Below, one piece after another: positions 3,364-64,000 of a stretch of 64,000 bases of DNA (positions are counted from its first letter, which is position 1; every line of letters starts with the position of its first letter). Position numbers and translations under genes: made by a program. This stretch comes from Neptunicella marina. Lineage in GTDB: Bacteria > Pseudomonadota > Gammaproteobacteria > Enterobacterales > Alteromonadaceae. The stretch is from positions 248,001 through 312,000 of the forward strand of contig NZ_JACNEP010000001.1 of the NCBI RefSeq assembly GCF_014270035.1, given 5' to 3'. The notes below the pieces were generated by a model. That model searched no databases. It saw nothing but the letters and a program-made list of their open reading frames with translations, and was not told where the DNA came from.

Positions 3364-5037
3364 ATGAAGCGATTACTTAGCCTCCCTCTTCTACTTGTGC
3401 TAAATGGCTGTGCCACCACGTCCATCTGGAACGACATTACCGAGCAACAACAAACCGAAGAGCACCTGATTGCCAACAAAATCGTGCAAAAGTGTGAACA
3501 AGGCGACACCAGCGATATTGATTCGCAGGACTGTGAACAAGCTCACAGCGGTGTTATCCCGGTAAATCATCCCAGCGAAGAAGTCGATATTGAGTTACAA
3601 GCCAATCAGGCTGTAATTGAAGAAGCCATCGAAGAACCGGTAGAAATTACAGATGTCTGGGAGCGTGTACGTGATCAGCTGCATTTCGCTATCCCTGACA
3701 ATCGTCGTGTTGCCAATCAGCGTAACTGGTACCTGGAACACCCCACATACATGCAACGTGTAACCAAACGTGCTACACCATTTTTGTACATGATTGTGGA
3801 TGAAATTGAAAAACGTGACATGCCGCTGGAACTGGCTTTATTACCTATTGTGGAAAGTGCGTTTGATCCCTTTGCATACTCACACGGACGCGCCGCAGGC
3901 ATGTGGCAGTTTATTCCCGCCACCGGCAAGCGTTTTGGTTTAAAACAAGGCTGGTGGTATGACGGTCGCCGTGATGTTGTTGCAGCCACACAGGGCGCGC
4001 TCGATTATTTAACCTATTTGTACAAGATGTTTGACGGTAACTGGTTACACGCGCTTGCAGCCTATAATAGTGGCGAAGGACGTGTATTAAGAGCAGTTAA
4101 GCATAATCGTAAAAAAGGTAAATCTACCGATTTCTGGCATCTGGATTTACCACGCGAAACCCGCGCTTACGTGCCCAAATTACTGGCGCTGGCAGATATT
4201 CTGAAAAATACCGACAAACGTGAAGATTACTGGTATCCCATTGCCAATCAACCCGTTACCGAAGTGGTGGATATTGGTTCACAAATCGATTTGGCTCTGG
4301 CTGCTGAGTTAGCAGAAATGCCGGTTAAAGAACTACATGCACTAAACCCGGGGTATAACCGCTGGGCAACCGATCCGGATGGCCCCCATCGTTTATTGCT
4401 GCCGGTAGAAAAAGTCGGTGCTTTTAGTCAAAAACTGGCAGAAACAGCCGATGATAAACGCCTGAACTGGGTACGTCATAAAGTCAGAAGTGGCGACAGC
4501 CTGTTAAAACTGGCACATAAATACCACACCACCGTGGATATCATTCGTGATATCAACAAAATCAAAGGTAATGTGATTGTTGCCGGTGATCACCTGTTAG
4601 TCCCGGTGGCGTTAAAATCACTTGATTCCTATGCCCTGTCACAGGATCAACGCATCGAAAAATTACAGTCTCGCCCGCACGGTGCCAATAAGCTTACCCA
4701 TTATGTTGTCAGTGGTGATACCTTCTGGGATCTGAGTCGCAAATACAAAGTGAGTATGCGCAATCTGGCCAAATGGAATGGCATGGCACCCACTGATCCT
4801 TTAATGCCAGGCAAAGAACTGGTGATTTGGGTCAATAAGGTGAGCGCCAACCAAACTGACAATTCGATTATGCGCACCCTCACCTACACAGTACGAAATG
4901 GTGACTCACTGGCACGTATAGCCAAACGTTTTAAAGTACTGGTGAGCGATATCACCAAATGGAACCAGTTAAACGTGAAGAAATACCTGCAACCGGGGCA
5001 AAAACTGAAAATCTTTGTGGATGTGACCCGAACCTAA
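3364..5037 (+). CDS. mltD: Membrane-bound lytic murein transglycosylase D
   Basis: Outer-membrane lipoprotein that cleaves the glycan strands of peptidoglycan with formation of 1,6-anhydro-muramic ends. A lipoprotein signal ends in LNGC, with the lipidated cysteine at residue 16. It is followed by an SLT catalytic domain (LPIVESAFDP with the catalytic Glu near residue 163; GMWQFIPATG; AYNSGEGRV) and three LysM peptidoglycan-binding repeats (about 368-416, 445-490 and 506-553). Length (557) and domain order are typical; E. coli MltD has two LysM repeats. The stop codon is followed at once by a heptamer repeat array and then a terminator. Confidence 0.96.
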   Translation: MKRLLSLPLLLVLNGCATTSIWNDITEQQQTEEHLIANKIVQKCEQGDTSDIDSQDCEQAHSGVIPVNHPSEEVDIELQANQAVIEEAIEEPVEITDVWERVRDQLHFAIPDNRRVANQRNWYLEHPTYMQRVTKRATPFLYMIVDEIEKRDMPLELALLPIVESAFDPFAYSHGRAAGMWQFIPATGKRFGLKQGWWYDGRRDVVAATQGALDYLTYLYKMFDGNWLHALAAYNSGEGRVLRAVKHNRKKGKSTDFWHLDLPRETRAYVPKLLALADILKNTDKREDYWYPIANQPVTEVVDIGSQIDLALAAELAEMPVKELHALNPGYNRWATDPDGPHRLLLPVEKVGAFSQKLAETADDKRLNWVRHKVRSGDSLLKLAHKYHTTVDIIRDINKIKGNVIVAGDHLLVPVALKSLDSYALSQDQRIEKLQSRPHGANKLTHYVVSGDTFWDLSRKYKVSMRNLAKWNGMAPTDPLMPGKELVIWVNKVSANQTDNSIMRTLTYTVRNGDSLARIAKRFKVLVSDITKWNQLNVKKYLQPGQKLKIFVDVTRT

Positions 5038-5167: not shown

Positions 5168-5512
5168 CTATTTACCGTTTTGCGCGATACAACCCCAGCC
5201 ATCGATCTCAACGTTATATAACTCTGCAATACAAGTCATAAATCCTGACACACACAGTAAAATATTCTGAGTTACTGGCATGTCTATTAAAAGTTGAACT
5301 ATGTATTGTTCTTCTTCAATTAATACACTTGATTTTCCATACTGAAAGTCATCTAGGAAACCTGCAACGGTCTCAGCTTTATCTTTGCTTCCGCATTTAA
5401 ACGTAAAATCAACTTCTCTAAACTTTTTAAAGTCATCGCCATCAGAATTTAATCTTCGAAGAACATCTGTATCTGCTTCTGTTGCTTCCATTAACTTTGA
5501 TATTACAGACAT
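5168..5512 (-). CDS. RraB-family-like small protein
   Basis: A 114-residue cytoplasmic protein resembling the ribonuclease E inhibitor RraB family (PF06877). The family pattern seen is an N-terminal 'DVLRRLNSDGDDF' helix, a 'VDFTFKC' strand, and a C-terminal 'VEIDGWGC' segment equivalent to the YDGWG end of RraB. E. coli RraB (138 aa) binds RNase E and modulates mRNA decay. Short paralogues like this one are widespread and mostly uncharacterised, so the function here is inferred only from fold family. The gene is more AT-rich than its neighbours and sits with another small gene between mltD and the ABC exporter, which suggests an accessory insertion. Confidence 0.65.
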   Translation of the reverse strand: MSVISKLMEATEADTDVLRRLNSDGDDFKKFREVDFTFKCGSKDKAETVAGFLDDFQYGKSSVLIEEEQYIVQLLIDMPVTQNILLCVSGFMTCIAELYNVEIDGWGCIAQNGK

Positions 5513-5617
5513 TTTTTTAAATCACCTCTTTACTTACGAGCAACCTCACATGTAGTTATCCACAAATAAAATCCAGCACGCAAAAACCATACTTTTAAGT
5601 ACCGTGTTTTACACGTT

Positions 5618-5990: not shown

Positions 5991-7187
5991 CTACCTAAAC
6001 AACACCTTTTCCTGATTAAACCAGTACACACAAAAGGCGATTAAGCCACCGGCGATAAGCACGGTTGAACCAAAAATACTGAACAATGCAAAGTAGTCCA
6101 TGGTGCCTTTAATCAGCTCTTTCATGGCTAACGCCACATTGGTAATGGGTACCCAGGCCCAGCCACCGTCCAGAGAAACCCCAGGCAACATAGCCACCAT
6201 AATCGGCAGGATAATAAAAATAACCAGCGCGCCCATATAACTTTGTGCTTCTTTAAAGCTACGGGCATATATAGACAAACACAACAGCACAGAGGCAAAA
6301 ATCGCGGTTACGGGCAACAACATCAGAAACATTAAAATAAAATCCAGGGCGCTAATTGCTGACATAAATTCTGCAACAAACTTAATCGCCATGCCCTGAC
6401 TCAATATCACGCCCCAGGTCGCCATACTCAAGATGGTAATCAATGCTGAAACCCCACCTGCAAAGGCAATGGTTAAAAATTTGCCTAACACCAGTTTATA
6501 ACGTGCGATGGGCGAGATTAATAAGGTTTCCAGGGTACCGCGCTCTTTTTCACCGGCACCAATATCAGATGACGGGTACATCGCCCCCTGAAAGCACAAT
6601 AAAAAGACCAGGTAAGGCACCATACCGCCAATCTTTTCGCCCCAGTTCTCGCGTTTGTCTGCCACATCCTGTTTTTCCAGCACAATAGGTTCAAGCAGGG
6701 CTTTTTGTTGTACGTCAGTCACTCCCAGCTGTTGAAAAGCCTGGAGCTGACGGTTTTTAGCAATATCTTCAACCAGTTCATTTACCCGGTTATAAACCAT
6801 ATTAAGTGATGCATCATTCAGGTACAGCGACAATTTTTGCTGGCCAGCATCAAATAAATTTTGTTCAAAGGACTCGGGGATCACCAGCACAAAATCTACT
6901 TTTTGCGCTTTAATCAATGCCGCGTAATCGTCACTGCCGTTGATATCAACCAGGCTGAATTTGTCTTCGGCTGCGAGCAGCGCATCGTATAAACCCGGCG
7001 CATAGGCTTCACCTGTGATAGCAAATTTTAATACTTTGTTTTGTGCTTCTTTAATGGCATTGCCGGAAATAAACGCCATCGAACCAATAATTAATGGAAA
7101 CAGCAGTACAGGTAACGCGATCATAAAAAATAATGTTTTTTTATCGCGAATTAACTCTTTGATTTCTTTATTAAACACTTGCCACAT
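5991..7187 (-). CDS. ABC-2 type permease, NatB-like
   Basis: Inner-membrane subunit of an ABC exporter of the NatAB (sodium extrusion) type. There is one N-terminal membrane segment after the KEIKELIRDKKTLFFM motif, a large extracytoplasmic domain (about residues 45-210), and about five membrane segments in the C-terminal half with the family signature 'GAGEKERGTLETLLISP'. The ATG at 7187 is chosen over a longer frame because it has an AAGGAGAG site directly upstream. Its first 17 bases overlap the end of the ATPase gene, implying translational coupling. Substrate specificity (Na+ or another cation or drug) cannot be read from the sequence. Confidence 0.88.
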   Translation of the reverse strand: MWQVFNKEIKELIRDKKTLFFMIALPVLLFPLIIGSMAFISGNAIKEAQNKVLKFAITGEAYAPGLYDALLAAEDKFSLVDINGSDDYAALIKAQKVDFVLVIPESFEQNLFDAGQQKLSLYLNDASLNMVYNRVNELVEDIAKNRQLQAFQQLGVTDVQQKALLEPIVLEKQDVADKRENWGEKIGGMVPYLVFLLCFQGAMYPSSDIGAGEKERGTLETLLISPIARYKLVLGKFLTIAFAGGVSALITILSMATWGVILSQGMAIKFVAEFMSAISALDFILMFLMLLPVTAIFASVLLCLSIYARSFKEAQSYMGALVIFIILPIMVAMLPGVSLDGGWAWVPITNVALAMKELIKGTMDYFALFSIFGSTVLIAGGLIAFCVYWFNQEKVLFR

Positions 7188-7968
7188 ATGACTCTCCTTG
7201 TGCCAACGCCTGCATAAATGAATGATGTAGGTTACCGTCTGATAGCTGTTTAAATTCATCCAGACTGCCGTCAAAACAACTGGTGCCCTGATTAATCACT
7301 GTCACGCGATCACATAATTCACTGACTTCATCCAGGTGGTGGGTCGAGAAAATAACCGGGGTGCCATCCGCTTTTAAACGTTGAATAAACTCAAGCACAG
7401 TCTGGGTGGCCATGATATCCAGACCGGTAGTAGGTTCATCCAGGATAACCAGCGCGGGCTTGTGCATTACCGCACGTGCAATTGCAGTTTTTTGTTTCAT
7501 GCCGCTGGAGAAGGTTTCACTGCGCCTGTCTAAAAAACTGTGCATATCGAGCAAGTCTGCTAACTCGTCAATGCGTTGTTCAATTTGTGATTTAGACATG
7601 CCGTGCAGCTGACCGAAGTAAGCAATGTTTTCACGTCCGCTTAAACGGCCATATAAACCTGTAGTACCCGATAGAAAGCCGATTTTTTTGCGCGCAACAA
7701 TCGGATTTTGCAACACATCTTCACCGTCGATAAATATCGAACCAGAATCCGCTTTTAACGCCGTAGATAAAATACGTAACGTGGTGGTTTTACCCGCCCC
7801 ATTGGGGCCCAGTAATCCCAGTACCTGACCATTATCACAGCTGAAACTGACATCCTGTACAGAGTGAAAAAAACGTCCCTTTAAGCGAGGGTCCCTGCGC
7901 TCCTGCTCACTGAGTTTTTTAGGGTTATCCACTGCAAACCGTTTAGCGAGCTTTTTGATCTCTATCAT
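7171..7968 (-). CDS. ABC transporter ATP-binding protein, NatA-like
   Basis: ATPase subunit of the exporter with the overlapping NatB-like permease. Walker A GPNGAGKTT is near residues 54-62, the ABC signature (SSGMK) at 153-157, Walker B LVILDEPTTGLD near 172-183, and the H-loop STHH near 210. These are all intact. The ATG at 7968, with AAGGA eight bases upstream, is preferred to a TTG one codon earlier. It is the first gene of a two-gene minus-strand operon divergent from the Yip1-family gene. Bacillus NatAB extrudes Na+; by homology this pair may do so, but that is inference. Confidence 0.9.
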   Translation of the reverse strand: MIEIKKLAKRFAVDNPKKLSEQERRDPRLKGRFFHSVQDVSFSCDNGQVLGLLGPNGAGKTTTLRILSTALKADSGSIFIDGEDVLQNPIVARKKIGFLSGTTGLYGRLSGRENIAYFGQLHGMSKSQIEQRIDELADLLDMHSFLDRRSETFSSGMKQKTAIARAVMHKPALVILDEPTTGLDIMATQTVLEFIQRLKADGTPVIFSTHHLDEVSELCDRVTVINQGTSCFDGSLDEFKQLSDGNLHHSFMQALAQGESYVASV

Positions 7969-8102
7969 CAAGTAAATCCTTGTTTTTAATCCTATATTTG
8001 CTCTGGAAATTAACCACGATATTACATAGTATTCGCAATGTTAATGCAATTACACGGACAAGATACTTTTGTTGCGAAATGTATCACCAACGGGAATCCC
8101 TA

Positions 8103-8807
8103 ATGGAAACTATCACTAATCCCTTTCAGGCTTGTAGCGAGGTGTTTGTAAAACCCAATCGCGTTTTTGCCACCTTACAGGAAAAACACAACTGGTCATG
8201 GATCCCGTTTTTTCTGATCTTATTTATGGCAATACTGCCAACCTATTTGTATTTCGGCTTTGTCGATTTTGACTGGTATAAGGAATTTCTGGTTCAGATA
8301 CAGATGGCAGATAAAAGCCCCGCCGAACAACAATCGTTTCGCGATAATTTCAGCATTGAACAGGTGAAAATTTTCTCAATTATCGGTGTTACTGTCGGTT
8401 TAATTGTGATCAACGCCATCGTTGCTATTTACCTCAATGCCATGGCCAAAATGGACGATAACAATGTAAATGGCTTCACCGACTGGTATGGCTTTACCTG
8501 GTGGACCAATATGCCAATTGTTATCAGTGGGCTTATTAGTTTATTAATGCTGGCGCTGGCAAGTGATCATCAAATTCCTCCCACGGCCCTCTCCCCGACT
8601 ACGCTGTCTTATGCGCTGTCTTTGCCTATGAATTCAGACTGGTACGGATTAACCAGCAATATTCGTCTGGAATCGTTCTGGTCAATTTATTTAACTGCAG
8701 TGGGTGTAAGCCGCTGGACACAGCTTTCCAATGGCAAATGCTGGATGATTGCTATTATCCCTACAGCACTCATCTGGGGAATTTGGCTGATAGTGAAGCT
8801 GGTTTAA
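8103..8807 (+). CDS. Yip1-family membrane protein
   Basis: Integral inner-membrane protein of 234 residues resembling the YIP1 family (PF04893), which has no settled function in bacteria. The start METITNPFQACSEVFVKPNRVFATL shows the conserved 'NPFxAc..vf..P...f..l' opening of this family, and four to five hydrophobic segments follow (beginning near residues 32, 95, 135, 190 and 215). An upstream in-frame TTG would add 41 residues without a signal sequence and is not supported. The gene is divergent from natA and 30 bp upstream of the periplasmic binding-protein gene, probably co-transcribed with it. Confidence 0.8.
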   Translation: METITNPFQACSEVFVKPNRVFATLQEKHNWSWIPFFLILFMAILPTYLYFGFVDFDWYKEFLVQIQMADKSPAEQQSFRDNFSIEQVKIFSIIGVTVGLIVINAIVAIYLNAMAKMDDNNVNGFTDWYGFTWWTNMPIVISGLISLLMLALASDHQIPPTALSPTTLSYALSLPMNSDWYGLTSNIRLESFWSIYLTAVGVSRWTQLSNGKCWMIAIIPTALIWGIWLIVKLV

Positions 8808-8837
8808 GGCCTGATAAAACAATGTTATTGTGCACGG

Positions 8838-32432: not shown

Positions 32433-32558
32433 GTCTAATTCTGTAAAAAAGCCATGAATATTGTTTAAGTGCCGACTATTTAAACAAACCGTTCAATATA
32501 CCAACTTTAATGTGCAAAAATTAGCTTAATCCGGTTTGTTTAATAAAAGTTTAACCAT

Positions 32559-60059: not shown

Positions 60060-61092
60060 CCTGCTTGTGCCTAAGTAAAATATCAACAATACGTTGATAA
60101 ACAATTTCCAGAATACTCCAGCTATCGCCGCCATTGGTATTCACCAGCAACACCACCACTGCATCAATATCTTTATGGTAACGCGCAATACTCGAATAAC
60201 CGGGCAATAACCCCGTATGACCATATTGATAAAGAGATGAATAAATTGTTTGTTCGCTATCAGTTAATAGTGAACCATCATTTAACGCCCGAATAAAAAT
60301 GCCTACATCTTCAGCCGTCGCTACCATAGAGCCGCCAGGATTCACAAAGTCGTTGCCCTTGATATCCGGCTCATATCCCTGAAAATAACCGCTGGTAACA
60401 TCCTCCAGATTCACTTCCTTAAGCAAACTAAAGGTATGGGTTAAACCAAGCGGCTGCACTATCTGTTGTTGAATAAACTGGTGATGGCTGTAACCCAGAG
60501 CGCGATCCATGATTGCACCCAACAACAAGTAATTAGAATTGGAATATTCGTAATCGCTGTCCGGGGGGAAATTCGACGGTTTATTGATAAACAGTGCCAA
60601 GGCGCCTTGATTATCCGGTGGGTTATCCCAGGGGAAATCAGGATTATCGCTGTAATTGTAAATACCACTGCGATGCTGCACCAACATGCGCAATGCGATG
60701 GTATCGGCATTTTCTATTTTATTGGCAACAGCAGGTAACAAGTCAGCCAGGGTATCGTCCTGATGCAAGACTTGCTGGTTAATCAATTTAGCCACCGCAA
60801 CCGCGATATATAACTTACTGATGCTGGCGATTTTAAAATACGCGTGAGGATCAGCCGGAATTTTGTCTTTGCGGTTATTCCAGCCTGCGGCTAATAATTG
60901 CGGTGGTTGCCCAGCTTCGTCGATATACGCAATCGCACCATCAAATCCATGTTCAAGCCCTTGTTCTAATTGTTGTTGTACTGTGTCAGGTAAAGGTGCA
61001 ATCCAGATACTGATGATATTCCAGGGCACAAACGCCAAACTCGCTAAACTGCATGTAATAAGCACAATTTGAAATAAGCGTTTTCCGTTCAT
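60052..61092 (-). CDS. Beta-lactamase-fold serine hydrolase (class C-like)
   Basis: Secreted or membrane-anchored protein of 346 residues in the beta-lactamase/penicillin-binding-protein fold (PF00144). One N-terminal hydrophobic segment (LFQIVLITCSLASLAFVPW) is followed by the nucleophile motif SISK at residues 90-93, the YSN triad member in EYSNSNYLL and an HTG box in GHTGLLPGY. All three motifs are intact. Such proteins are usually peptidases or esterases and only rarely antibiotic-degrading enzymes, so a resistance role is not implied. It is divergent from the TonB-dependent receptor gene and shares its 200-bp upstream region. Confidence 0.88.
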   Translation of the reverse strand: MNGKRLFQIVLITCSLASLAFVPWNIISIWIAPLPDTVQQQLEQGLEHGFDGAIAYIDEAGQPPQLLAAGWNNRKDKIPADPHAYFKIASISKLYIAVAVAKLINQQVLHQDDTLADLLPAVANKIENADTIALRMLVQHRSGIYNYSDNPDFPWDNPPDNQGALALFINKPSNFPPDSDYEYSNSNYLLLGAIMDRALGYSHHQFIQQQIVQPLGLTHTFSLLKEVNLEDVTSGYFQGYEPDIKGNDFVNPGGSMVATAEDVGIFIRALNDGSLLTDSEQTIYSSLYQYGHTGLLPGYSSIARYHKDIDAVVVLLVNTNGGDSWSILEIVYQRIVDILLRHKQAS

Positions 61093-61174
61093 AACCTCGT
61101 CCTCAAACTTTGGCTTATCGATGCCCTAAGCCACTCATATTACGTAGAAATTACAAAATAATTACCATTTAATC

Positions 61175-61214
61175 CTGTCATAAAAAAGTCGTAAAAACAT
61201 CAATTAACTGTCAA
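61175..61214 (+). promoter_or_regulatory. PHO-box-like array upstream of the TonB receptor
   Basis: Half-sites start every 11 bp: CTGTCAT (61175), AAGTCGT (61186), ACATCAA (61197) and CTGTCAA (61208), separated by A/T-only tetranucleotides. The PhoB box is built of CTGTCAT-type heptamers with 4-bp A/T spacers. The first unit is a perfect match, the fourth has one mismatch, and the two middle units are weak. A TATAAA at 61261 is a possible -10 but lies farther away than usual. Confidence 0.5.
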
Positions 61215-61301
61215 GTTTTTGCCGCTTTCTCTTCACAAAACTGCTGCACATTAGCGCGCTTATAAAAACAACACACTCAACTACAAATAATGGAACCGCT
61301 A

Positions 61302-63644
61302 ATGAAATTAGGACATTACAAACATCTCGCAATGTGCATTGCGTGCGCGTTAACCCAACAAGCCATGGCAGAGGAAGCTGCACCAGCTAACAAGGAAGAA
61401 ACCACATTGGAAGAAATCACTGTCGTGGGACGCAGTGTTTCTTATGCGAACAACCAGACTGATGATTCGATGCTTAAACAGCAAACGGCACTCACCAGTG
61501 CATTGGCTGTTATCGATAATCTACCTGGTGTACTTATCAACGAAGGTGATACCTTTGGTTCTGACGACTGGTCTACCACTGTATCTATTCGTGGCTTTCA
61601 GTTAAGCCTCGATGAACAGCAAATCGGTATTACCATCGATGGCATCGCCAACGGTAACTCAAACTATGGTGGTGGTGCCAAAGCCAACCGTTATATCGAC
61701 ACCGAAAACTTAGGTCGTGTAGAAGTATCTCAAGGTACGGGCGATGTAGCCTCCCGCTCTAACGAAGCGTTAGGCGGTACATTAAACTTCACTACTTATG
61801 ATCCAGGCGTGACTGAGCGCATGACCACCAGTTTGTCATTAGGTAGTTTTGATGCACAGAAGTACTTTGTACGTTACGAAACCGGTGAAATCGCTAAAGA
61901 TACCTTTGCATGGGTAAGTGTATCCAGCAGCCAAAACAGTGACTGGGTTGATCAGGTTGCCGAAAACAAACGTGATCACTTAGCAGCTAAAGTATTATCC
62001 AACATTGGTGGTGTTGATTTCACCGCTTACGTTAGCTGGGATGATACCCACGAAGATAACTACCAACGTGTAAGCCTGGCTCAGTTTATTCAAAATCCAG
62101 AATCAGATAATTTAACCTCGGAATGGACAGGTATTCCTTACGTAGACCAGGTCTATCGTCGCGGTTGGTCTACTCTGCGTGAAAACCTTTTTGGTTACTT
62201 AAAAGCGTCTTATCAGGTGGGTGATTTAGAGCTCTCTGGTAATGTTTATTATCACCATAATGAAGGCCGTGGTGACTGGGTTCCTCAGTATGTAGTGGAT
62301 GTTCACGCCGATGGTGACAATCAGGCACATTCTGAACTGGTTTCAGGTAATACTTATTATGGCGGCAGTGCATTAGGACAAATAAAGTTTGTTGATTCTA
62401 ACGGTATGGCACTTAGTCCAATTGACGGTTGTCAAAGTTCAATCGTATTCCCATACGGTGGAGCTGGTGCAGATTACGATCCAAACTGTTATGAAGATGG
62501 TGCCGTTCCTGTTGGTTCATATCGTCACAGCCACTACAAAAAAGAACGTGTAGGTTTTGATGCTGACTTTGTTTACTACACCCGTTTAAATGGTATGGAT
62601 AACGAATTACGAGGCGGAATCTGGTATGAAGATTACAAGCGTCAGGAATCCCGTGACTGGCATAAAATCATTGATTCTAAAACCAGCTACGAATTTGACC
62701 ACACGCCTTACTGGGTGCAGTACGATAACCGCTTCCCGGTTACCACCACCATGTTTTATGCCGAAGATGAATTGGATACCGGCTTTGCCAAATTCCGTTT
62801 GGGTGTAAAACAGTTTTTTGTCGACTTAGAGCGTTTCGACAACTTTGGTGAAGGTGAACACCGTGAGGTTAACTCAGATTCTGATCTGTTAGTTTCGGGT
62901 GGTGTGGTTGTGCAAACCGGCATCGATGGATTGGAAGTATTTGCCGGTTATGCCGAAAACTTTGCTGCGATCAAAGACGCGGTATTAGAAAAAGAAGCTT
63001 CTGCACTGGAAGATATCGAACCAGAAACCGCCGATAATATCGATGCGGGTTTACGTTTTGTGTCAGGCAGCGTTAACGCCAGTATCACCTACTATGATAT
63101 CAAATTCGAAAACCGCCTAACCTTTATCTCTCCGGACTCACCTGATGGTGTTAACTACCTGGATGAAAACAATGGCGCTTACATTAACGTAGGTGGTATT
63201 GAATCTAAGGGTGTGGAAGCTTCGTTAACCGTTGATTTAAGCGAACGCTGGTCGCTGTATGGTTCATATACGCATAATACCTCTGAATACACTGGTGGTT
63301 TGAGTGATTATCCGGAAGGTAATCAGGTATTTGGCTCTGCGAAAAACATGGCAGTTGTCTCTGTTGATTACACACACGGTAACTACTTTGCCGGTAGTTC
63401 AACCAAATGGGTCGATGACCGTTATATTGATGCCGCTAATACCCAGATTGCGCCGGGCTATGTTGTGACGGATTTCTACGCTGGTGTTGCTGTTGAATCT
63501 CCGGTTCAGGGCATTGAGTCAATCAACGTGCGTATGACCATCAACAATATGTTTGATAAGAGCTATTTAGGTGGTATTGCTGGTCAGGCCGCATGGATTG
63601 GATCACCACGTTCTGCTGCTTTAAACCTGAGCATGAGCTTCTAA
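61302..63644 (+). CDS. TonB-dependent outer-membrane receptor
   Basis: 22-strand outer-membrane transporter, energised by TonB. The signal peptide (HLAMCIACALTQQAMA) is followed by the TonB box region (EEITVVG), a plug domain (VSIRGFQLSLDEQQIGITID, RVEVSQGTGDVASRSNEALG) and a beta-barrel ending in ALNLSMSF with the terminal phenylalanine. The ATG at 61302 has GGA seven bases upstream; an ATG four codons earlier is less likely. About 780 residues. The substrate is not given by the sequence. The PHO-box-like upstream site and the downstream phosphatase suggest a phosphorylated organic compound. Confidence 0.92.
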   Translation: MKLGHYKHLAMCIACALTQQAMAEEAAPANKEETTLEEITVVGRSVSYANNQTDDSMLKQQTALTSALAVIDNLPGVLINEGDTFGSDDWSTTVSIRGFQLSLDEQQIGITIDGIANGNSNYGGGAKANRYIDTENLGRVEVSQGTGDVASRSNEALGGTLNFTTYDPGVTERMTTSLSLGSFDAQKYFVRYETGEIAKDTFAWVSVSSSQNSDWVDQVAENKRDHLAAKVLSNIGGVDFTAYVSWDDTHEDNYQRVSLAQFIQNPESDNLTSEWTGIPYVDQVYRRGWSTLRENLFGYLKASYQVGDLELSGNVYYHHNEGRGDWVPQYVVDVHADGDNQAHSELVSGNTYYGGSALGQIKFVDSNGMALSPIDGCQSSIVFPYGGAGADYDPNCYEDGAVPVGSYRHSHYKKERVGFDADFVYYTRLNGMDNELRGGIWYEDYKRQESRDWHKIIDSKTSYEFDHTPYWVQYDNRFPVTTTMFYAEDELDTGFAKFRLGVKQFFVDLERFDNFGEGEHREVNSDSDLLVSGGVVVQTGIDGLEVFAGYAENFAAIKDAVLEKEASALEDIEPETADNIDAGLRFVSGSVNASITYYDIKFENRLTFISPDSPDGVNYLDENNGAYINVGGIESKGVEASLTVDLSERWSLYGSYTHNTSEYTGGLSDYPEGNQVFGSAKNMAVVSVDYTHGNYFAGSSTKWVDDRYIDAANTQIAPGYVVTDFYAGVAVESPVQGIESINVRMTINNMFDKSYLGGIAGQAAWIGSPRSAALNLSMSF

Positions 63645-63661
63645 TATAAACTTGAAAAAAT

Positions 63662-63686
63662 AAAGGCAGGTGATCCTGCCTTTTTT
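63662..63686 (+). terminator. Hairpin between receptor and phosphatase genes
   Basis: A 9-bp stem AAAGGCAGG / CCTGCCTTT with a TGAT loop runs into TTT. It lies only 30 bp upstream of the phosphatase start and may attenuate rather than block read-through. Confidence 0.75.
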
Positions 63687-63715
63687 CGTTTTTAAACCCT
63701 GTAAGGATAACAACA

Positions 63716-64000
63716 ATGCGCGCTATTTTATTTGTATTGCTAAGCCTTTATCTCAGCTCAATGTCGGCCACTGCCGCCGATAATTTGGTTATTGTTACTA
63801 TGGATGGCATGCGCTGGCAGGAAGTGTTCAACGGCATCGATCCGGTTTTAACTAATAATGAGAAATTTACCCGCGACGGTTTTAATATCAAATCAACATT
63901 CGATGCAGAGAATAATGAATTAAAACGCCAAAAACTGATGCCATTTTTGTGGAACACGGTTGTTCAGCAGGGCGTCATCACCGGCAATCAAAACGCAGGT
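63716..64000 (+). CDS. Alkaline phosphatase-superfamily secreted protein, 5' part
   Basis: The open frame runs off the end of the window; 95 residues are visible. The ATG has AAGGA nine bases upstream and is followed by a signal peptide (AILFVLLSLYLSSMSATAA). The mature start DNLVIVTMDGMRWQEVFNGID carries the first metal-binding Asp in the 'TMDGMRWQEVF' motif of alkaline-phosphatase/sulfatase-superfamily proteins. The catalytic Thr/Ser region is not yet reached. Its place after a TonB-dependent receptor fits release of phosphate from organic esters. Confidence 0.8.
   Translation, partial: MRAILFVLLSLYLSSMSATAADNLVIVTMDGMRWQEVFNGIDPVLTNNEKFTRDGFNIKSTFDAENNELKRQKLMPFLWNTVVQQGVITGNQNAG

Follow-up and report, generated by a model that had tools for sequence, protein, structure and literature searches.

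The DNA analysed here (the window) comprises 64,000 nt of the Neptunicella marina genome (G000:C11:248001-312000, G000 being the genome and L002 the locus). From position 61175 onwards it carries the promoter and the first part of a three-gene operon that probably belongs to the Pho regulon and serves to scavenge phosphate from choline-containing phosphoesters (glycerophosphocholine, phosphocholine or lysophosphatidylcholine, for example). A preliminary description, made from the sequence of the window, had proposed a Pho-regulon unit for the uptake of a phosphorylated organic compound, with a PHO-box-like array, a TonB-dependent receptor of unknown specificity and a phosphatase. The data below support this proposal: the match to a PhoB matrix stands above background, the receptor-phosphatase pair recurs together with the box, and a PhoD-like enzyme that fits such a function is encoded next to them. 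The receptor specificity can be narrowed, by inference from relatives, to choline phosphoesters; this link to choline, which gives a substrate lead for the operon, is new here.

A PHO-box-like array upstream of a three-gene operon

Four heptamers occur in exact 11-base steps on the plus strand (61175..61214), namely CTGTCAT at 61175, AAGTCGT at 61186, ACATCAA at 61197 and CTGTCAA at 61208, with three spacers of pure A/T and GTTT as the fourth. When identities are counted against CTGTCAT, the E. coli PHO-box heptamer consensus, two of the units are near consensus (7/7 and 6/7), as had been noticed before, and two are weak (4/7 and 3/7). The resulting identity sum of 20/28 at 61175 is unique among the 127,922 four-unit positions of the window, both strands included. 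The first gene is thereby preceded by at least two direct CTGTCAT-related heptamers in 11-bp phase, the feature by which a Pho-regulon unit was recognised.

A plain CTGTCATNNNNCTGTCAT pattern with three mismatches was too unspecific in the N. marina genome (419 matches versus 230 for a reversed control), and an 18-bp PhoB matrix was therefore trained on 16 phoB promoters, that of N. marina among them, with the receptor promoters excluded. PhoB is present in all 16 genomes queried, and the best heptamer pair upstream of phoB in the training promoters shows 8 to 13 of 14 identities. With this matrix, 61175 ranks first in the window for 4, 5 and 6 units, third for 2 and ninth for 3, the four-unit score being 11.2 versus 5.6 for the next site. 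Its 18-bp score of 13.3 occupies joint ranks 2 and 3 in the window, corresponds to p = 0.006 in 500 dinucleotide shuffles of the promoter, and is reached by 0.3% of 373 other upstream regions taken from the same loci, which served as background with their 95th percentile as threshold. The top 18-bp and two-unit match of the window (32538-32555, plus strand, score 14.9) is probably due to chance because no clear gene start lies nearby on its strand, where a 110-aa frame from 32726 overlaps a longer frame of the opposite strand.

Promoters of orthologous receptors were compared at 35 distinct loci, one each of the duplicates L057/L128 and L063/L132 being left out. A further receptor (L144), included in an earlier set of 36, was dropped, having 27% identity, opposite strand and a position outside the receptor cluster. 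The sample contains close pairs (L052/L119, L122/L125, L135/L137 and L066/L143), so that promoter P-values assuming independence are overstated. The array score lies above the control threshold in 33/35 receptor promoters (all except L061 and L126) versus 5/35 reverse strands, and the 18-bp score in 22/35 versus 3/35. A -10-like hexamer is located exactly 10 bp past a heptamer in 20 of these promoters, with 0 to 7 of 35 at each of 21 other spacings (range 3-24). PhoB-activated promoters, to which those of E. coli pstS, phoA and phoB with their PHO boxes belong, have their -10 element ca. 10 bp downstream of the PHO box. In silico, the array and the fixed -10 spacing of the orthologues are the layout of PhoB-activated promoters. 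They resemble the E. coli ones in the direct heptamer repeats in 11-bp phase and, in the 20 orthologues, in the -10 distance; they differ in having four or more units and, in six relatives, a BetI operator in register (see below).

At the N. marina locus, the array may continue in phase (61219..61236, plus strand) with a weak TTGCCGC at 61219 and TCTTCAC at 61230, as suggested by the phase itself and by the promoters of the relatives. The hexamer CACATT (61247..61252, plus strand), 10 bases past the last in-phase heptamer and with a 3/6 match to TATAAT, is a weak candidate for the -10 element, its spacing being that found in the 20 orthologous promoters.

The first gene (61302..63644, plus strand) encodes a TonB-dependent outer-membrane receptor of 780 amino acids (aa), as previously proposed, with Plug (PF07715, 41.8 bits, cut-off 23.9) and barrel (PF00593, 103.2 bits, cut-off 27) domains. 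Its start is probably at 61302, an alternative in-frame ATG being found at 61290. The second gene (63716..64000, plus strand) is cut by the window end and runs to ca. 64810; its full 364-aa product matches PF01663 (28.4 bits, gathering score 23), in agreement with the earlier assignment to the alkaline phosphatase superfamily. The operon is longer than first described and includes, in the adjoining DNA, a third, PhoD-like gene of 347 aa (ca. 64807-65850 in window numbering, plus strand) that overlaps the phosphatase gene by 4 bp and matches PF09423 (62.6 bits, gathering score 27).

In the phosphatase, D30, S107, D235, H239, D271, H272 and H284 are invariant in 16/16 sequences and, following superfamily patterns, are presumably metal ligands and nucleophile. 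A single-sequence search with this protein found no solved relative, and a profile search gave only weak matches to NPP, phosphoglycerate mutase, PafA and sulfatase. A structural model of the L119 orthologue (56% identical to the N. marina protein, mean pLDDT, the predicted local distance difference test score, 94.3) best matched PafA (Z 29.6, root mean square deviation, rmsd, 3.2, 296 residues aligned) and SPAP (Z 28.4), with lower, near-tied rows for Xac NPP (25.7), ENPP7 with phosphocholine (25.1), ENPP6 (24.8) and choline sulfatase (24.7). The predicted fold is that of the PafA/SPAP phosphatases and NPP phosphodiesterases, the latter including ENPP7 and the choline-specific ENPP6; the enzyme differs from them by a serine at the presumed nucleophile position and by low identity (16-21% in these rows), and the modelled fold does not fix the substrate.

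For the PhoD-like protein, the model of the L119 orthologue (mean pLDDT 75.6) best matched B. subtilis PhoD (2yeq; Z 25.6, rmsd 2.7, 288 aligned), followed by purple acid phosphatases (Z 20). As described in PMC4223295, the PhoD family includes a phospholipase D (S. chromofuscus). The protein shares with these enzymes the fold and the aligned Ser-Cys and Trp-Asp-Asp-His motifs, and belongs to the Cys subfamily (PMC4223295). It differs in being a short form of ca. 345 aa, with a leader that by eye is of Sec type, and in scoring 27 bits against the NCBIfam equivalog for alkaline phosphatase PhoD (NF058638), far under its cut-off of 1000.

Receptor, phosphatase and PhoD genes lie on one strand in 30/35 receptor loci, so that the pair recurs in related genomes together with the box, as the preliminary description had suggested examining. 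Of the other five loci, two (L139 and L062) have their contig end within 1 kb past the phosphatase, and three (L056, L121 and L129) show no PhoD in the available stretch; in L058 (G007, 6718-8820) phosphatase and PhoD are fused in one 701-aa open frame. The complete operon occurs, among others, in Paraglaciecola, Colwellia, Thalassotalea, Pseudoalteromonas and Psychrosphaera; Microbulbifer (L121) has only receptor and phosphatase. The phosphatase gene was found in 18 of 118 genomes of relatives, N. marina included, and a scan of public genomes added the best 80 of at least 587 loci, some of them from genomes already in the relatives set. Such a receptor is missing in 59 of the resulting 97 loci, mostly Bacteroidota by record title, so that the presence of this phosphatase family does not by itself point to the receptor. 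Among the matches listed, loci within the range L138-L198 carry the phosphatase without this receptor or PhoD and are again mostly Bacteroidota.

Probable BetI operators in orthologous promoters

The link to choline comes from a palindrome that was first noticed in three receptor promoters, in one of them with a mismatch. Its 14-bp core, searched in 16 genomes, was found at the receptor promoters of G058 and G015 and upstream of TetR genes in G054 and G008. Both TetR genes are followed by a betaine-aldehyde-dehydrogenase-like gene, and their products score over the cut-off for BetI, the choline repressor. One exact copy of the palindrome falls within a coding frame of G058 (L074) and was regarded as a chance occurrence. 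With up to two mismatches, the core is located within 400 bp upstream of betI in 24/27 relatives (in G015 this is the receptor's own site) and upstream of betI in 11/12 further genomes, and for this reason the palindrome is very likely, on positional grounds, the BetI operator of this group. With up to one mismatch, the core occurs 7 times in the 1.38 Mb of the 97 loci, 6 times in receptor promoters and once in L192.

The six receptor promoters with an operator are those of L053, L055, L065, L126, L127 and L131 (Pseudoalteromonas flavipulchra), the other 29 having none. The palindrome keeps one and the same register with the array in each of the six, its half-site CGTTCAA being placed 22 bp ahead of the last heptamer position; competition between BetI and PhoB is therefore predicted where the palindrome is present. 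The betI gene itself adjoins the operon in four loci, either directly downstream of PhoD (L053 and L055) or divergent from the receptor (L065 and L126). All four products are over the BetI cut-off, that of L126 barely so (201.4 versus 201.3 bits, and 200.9 in another scan). The L053 locus runs on from betI into betB, whose product is over one curated cut-off, and then into a betA-like frame that the locus end truncates at 311 aa; this BetA piece has its best score with choline dehydrogenase, but under the cut-off of that family.

In a maximum-likelihood tree of the 35 receptors, the operator distribution amounts to five changes, at least four of them forced by well-supported branches, and both main clades are concerned. 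The N. marina receptor falls inside this tree, near those of G054 and Paraglaciecola mesophila; with the operator scattered over both main clades, it therefore lies inside a choline-linked family. The N. marina genome also encodes a BetT-type choline transporter (757.6 bits, cut-off 695). Two GDPD proteins are encoded in the same genome.

The betI gene was sought in 33 operon genomes (16 + 19, two being in both sets; the genomes of L122 and L139 lay outside this search). In L127 a perfect BetI operator (5508-5521) is found in a genome in which no BetI was detected at E 1e-30, which may reflect an incomplete assembly, a diverged BetI or a relic.

Pho regulon and Ton energiser of N. marina

The N. 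marina genome has the regulators required (L069): PhoB scores 362.3 bits (cut-off 296.2) and PhoR 553.9 (cut-off 390), and PstS-family and PstC proteins likewise exceed the curated cut-offs. PhoB matrix sites precede phoB, pstS and pstC, those of pstS and pstC being the fair check since the phoB promoter of this genome was part of the training set.

Between phoB and phoR (C22, L069 7618-12760) lies a cluster of DUF3450, ExbB-like, ExbB, ExbD-like, TonB and TPR genes, assigned by family search except for ExbD, which was assigned by eye. A PHO-box pair faces its first gene (L069 12732-12760, minus strand, matrix scores 19.9 and 14.7), which suggests that this Ton system may itself be phosphate-regulated. 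In 13/15 relatives phoR lies at most 1.5 kb from phoB, and a TPR gene occurs in that stretch in 0/15. A homologous cluster was found in one of the 97 loci, that of Colwellia sp. BB5 (L123 14-5280; 41-61% identity over five genes compared), where it is co-directional with the receptor gene and ends ca. 305 bp upstream of it. The same type of cluster is thus located beside phoB and phoR in N. marina and beside the receptor operon in Colwellia, which ties the Ton system to the operon.

Also in L069, a Gram-negative porin gene (PF13609; 2813-3754, minus strand) has a PHO-box-like array upstream (3805-3855, also minus strand) and possibly encodes a phosphate-starvation porin.

Proposed function, alternatives and gene neighbourhood

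According to the model that we favour, phosphate starvation would bring PhoB onto the heptamer array, with RNA polymerase recruited to the -10 element ca. 10 bp downstream, and PhoB would also switch on transcription of the Ton cluster. The receptor, powered by this Pho-regulon energiser, would carry a choline phosphoester through the outer membrane; in the periplasm, the PhoD-like enzyme would cut the diester and the PafA/NPP-like enzyme would then remove phosphate from the monoester, phosphate entering via Pst and free choline being left for BetT. The regulatory steps of this model draw on sequence evidence; the ligand is assigned from how relatives regulate the operon, and the step given to each enzyme from what is known of its family. 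In several relatives BetI would also repress the same promoter, which would then be active only if phosphate shortage coincides with the presence of choline. In N. marina, where this second control is absent, the operon would serve phosphate supply, choline control having been either lost or never gained. The fuller version, in which the receptor is a choline-phosphoester TonB transporter with its own phosphate-regulated Ton energiser and in which, in part of the family, one half of the BetI palindrome also serves as a heptamer and the two regulators, BetI and PhoB, thus compete at a two-input promoter, is put forward tentatively, at somewhat below an even chance.

Several observations weigh against this model. 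At the promoter of N. marina itself, two of the four heptamers are poor, the -10 candidate is weak (3/6) and lies outside the 20 promoters with a clear -10, and a sigma-70 consensus scan of 61000-61400 gave no promoter; this last result is expected for a PhoB-dependent promoter, yet proves nothing. With respect to choline, no BetI was found in the N. marina genome at E 1e-30 and no BetI-like site, with up to two mismatches, at its locus, so that features of BetI-regulon membership are seen in the orthologous operons of six promoters and not in the one described here; the BetA-like protein of this genome is found only under the cut-off. Even among the relatives, the operator is restricted to 6/35 receptor promoters. 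Seventeen of the 33 operon genomes have betI, the operator preceding the receptor in 5 and not in 12 of them; the other 16 have no detected betI, one of these (L127) having the operator. One of the six operator loci (L126) has its PhoB array under the control threshold. As for the proteins, the solved structures nearest to the receptor (CntO, FoxA and the pyochelin receptors) are those of siderophore or metallophore receptors, and the phosphatase model is closest to PafA and SPAP, the choline enzymes appearing only among many lower rows.

One alternative is a general organophosphate system of the Pho regulon, acting on glycerol phosphates, nucleotides or phospholipid fragments, in which choline is one of many products and the BetI sites are a local add-on in some relatives. 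The near-universal array as compared with the BetI operator (33/35 versus 6/35) points in this direction, and so do the best structural matches of the phosphatase, since PafA and SPAP are broad monoesterases. PhoD-family enzymes are likewise phosphodiesterases that also have monoesterase activity (PMC4223295). The position of betI beside the operon in four loci and in two different geometries is not readily explained in this way, nor is an operator that is not restricted to one receptor clade. Furthermore, the other neighbours recurring in at least 3/36 loci are a syntenic Pseudoalteromonas block, response regulators in a loose cluster (four loci) and a PhoA-like phosphatase (three loci). We consider a general organophosphate system unlikely, though it is the most serious competitor of the choline-phosphoester model.

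Import of iron, or of another metal complex, as cofactor of the PhoD-like enzyme, the operon coupling metal supply to phosphatase production, would suit the nearest solved receptors (CntO, FoxA and the pyochelin receptors) and the best NCBIfam matches of the receptor, which are siderophore and heme receptors, all under cut-off, and B. subtilis PhoD does bind Fe3+ and Ca2+ (PMC4223295); a BetI operator would however make little sense there and, by eye, no siderophore or Fur-type gene stands out among the neighbour clusters in at least 3/36 loci, which makes this explanation very improbable. Least probable of all is a chance similarity in A/T-rich DNA, with the operon outside PhoB control: two weak heptamers, and an 18-bp score exceeded by one site of the window and equalled by another, speak for it, whereas the first rank among 127,922 four-unit positions, the excess over the 373 controls, the orientation bias and fixed -10 spacing across orthologues, and the sites that the same matrix finds before pstS and pstC in this genome all speak against it.

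A search of the literature by title and abstract, with subscription journals mostly outside its coverage, revealed no TonB receptor for choline phosphoesters, no promoter combining BetI and PhoB and no such operon. To our knowledge, only a small part of the very large number of TonB receptors has a known ligand other than iron, B12 and sugars; the present locus yields a specific ligand prediction from regulation alone. A close precedent is found in Phaeobacter sp. MED193 (Roseobacter), where phosphocholine is used via PhoX, BetT, BetA and BetB (PMC10132767). The likeness lies in the phosphate starvation of the bacterium, with a choline headgroup serving as the phosphate source and the choline itself being used; the difference is that PhoX is the phosphatase there, PhoA and PhoD being absent from the strain according to the text available (PMC10132767), whereas here receptor, PhoD-like and PafA/NPP-like enzymes are encoded in one operon. 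Glycerophosphodiesterases have been described in Pseudomonas (PMC5438359). In the main texts of these two papers (PMC10132767 and PMC5438359), no word begins with TonB, and the first of them notes, for its proteomics data, a remaining need to identify transporters and putative phosphatase-like enzymes genetically and biochemically (PMC10132767). The operon may supply a step by which marine gammaproteobacteria take choline phosphoesters across the outer membrane for use. A promoter under both PhoB and BetI would connect phosphorus limitation, at a single site, with the metabolism of choline, nitrogen and osmolytes.

Finally, some neighbouring genes deserve mention. A gene for a beta-lactamase-family serine hydrolase (PF00144, 60052-61092, minus strand) is divergent from the receptor promoter of N. 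marina and may or may not share its regulatory region. Besides betI, the neighbours recurring in at least 3/36 loci include response regulators of sigma-54 type, loosely clustered near the operon in L120, L122, L123 and L125; that of L120 is NtrC over the cut-off, and those of L122 and L125 seem, by eye, to be part of a two-component pair upstream of the receptor. Near the operon or the phosphatase, L065 (784-2445, minus strand), L125 and L144 have a gene for a PhoA-like alkaline phosphatase, the L065 product being under the NCBIfam cut-off.

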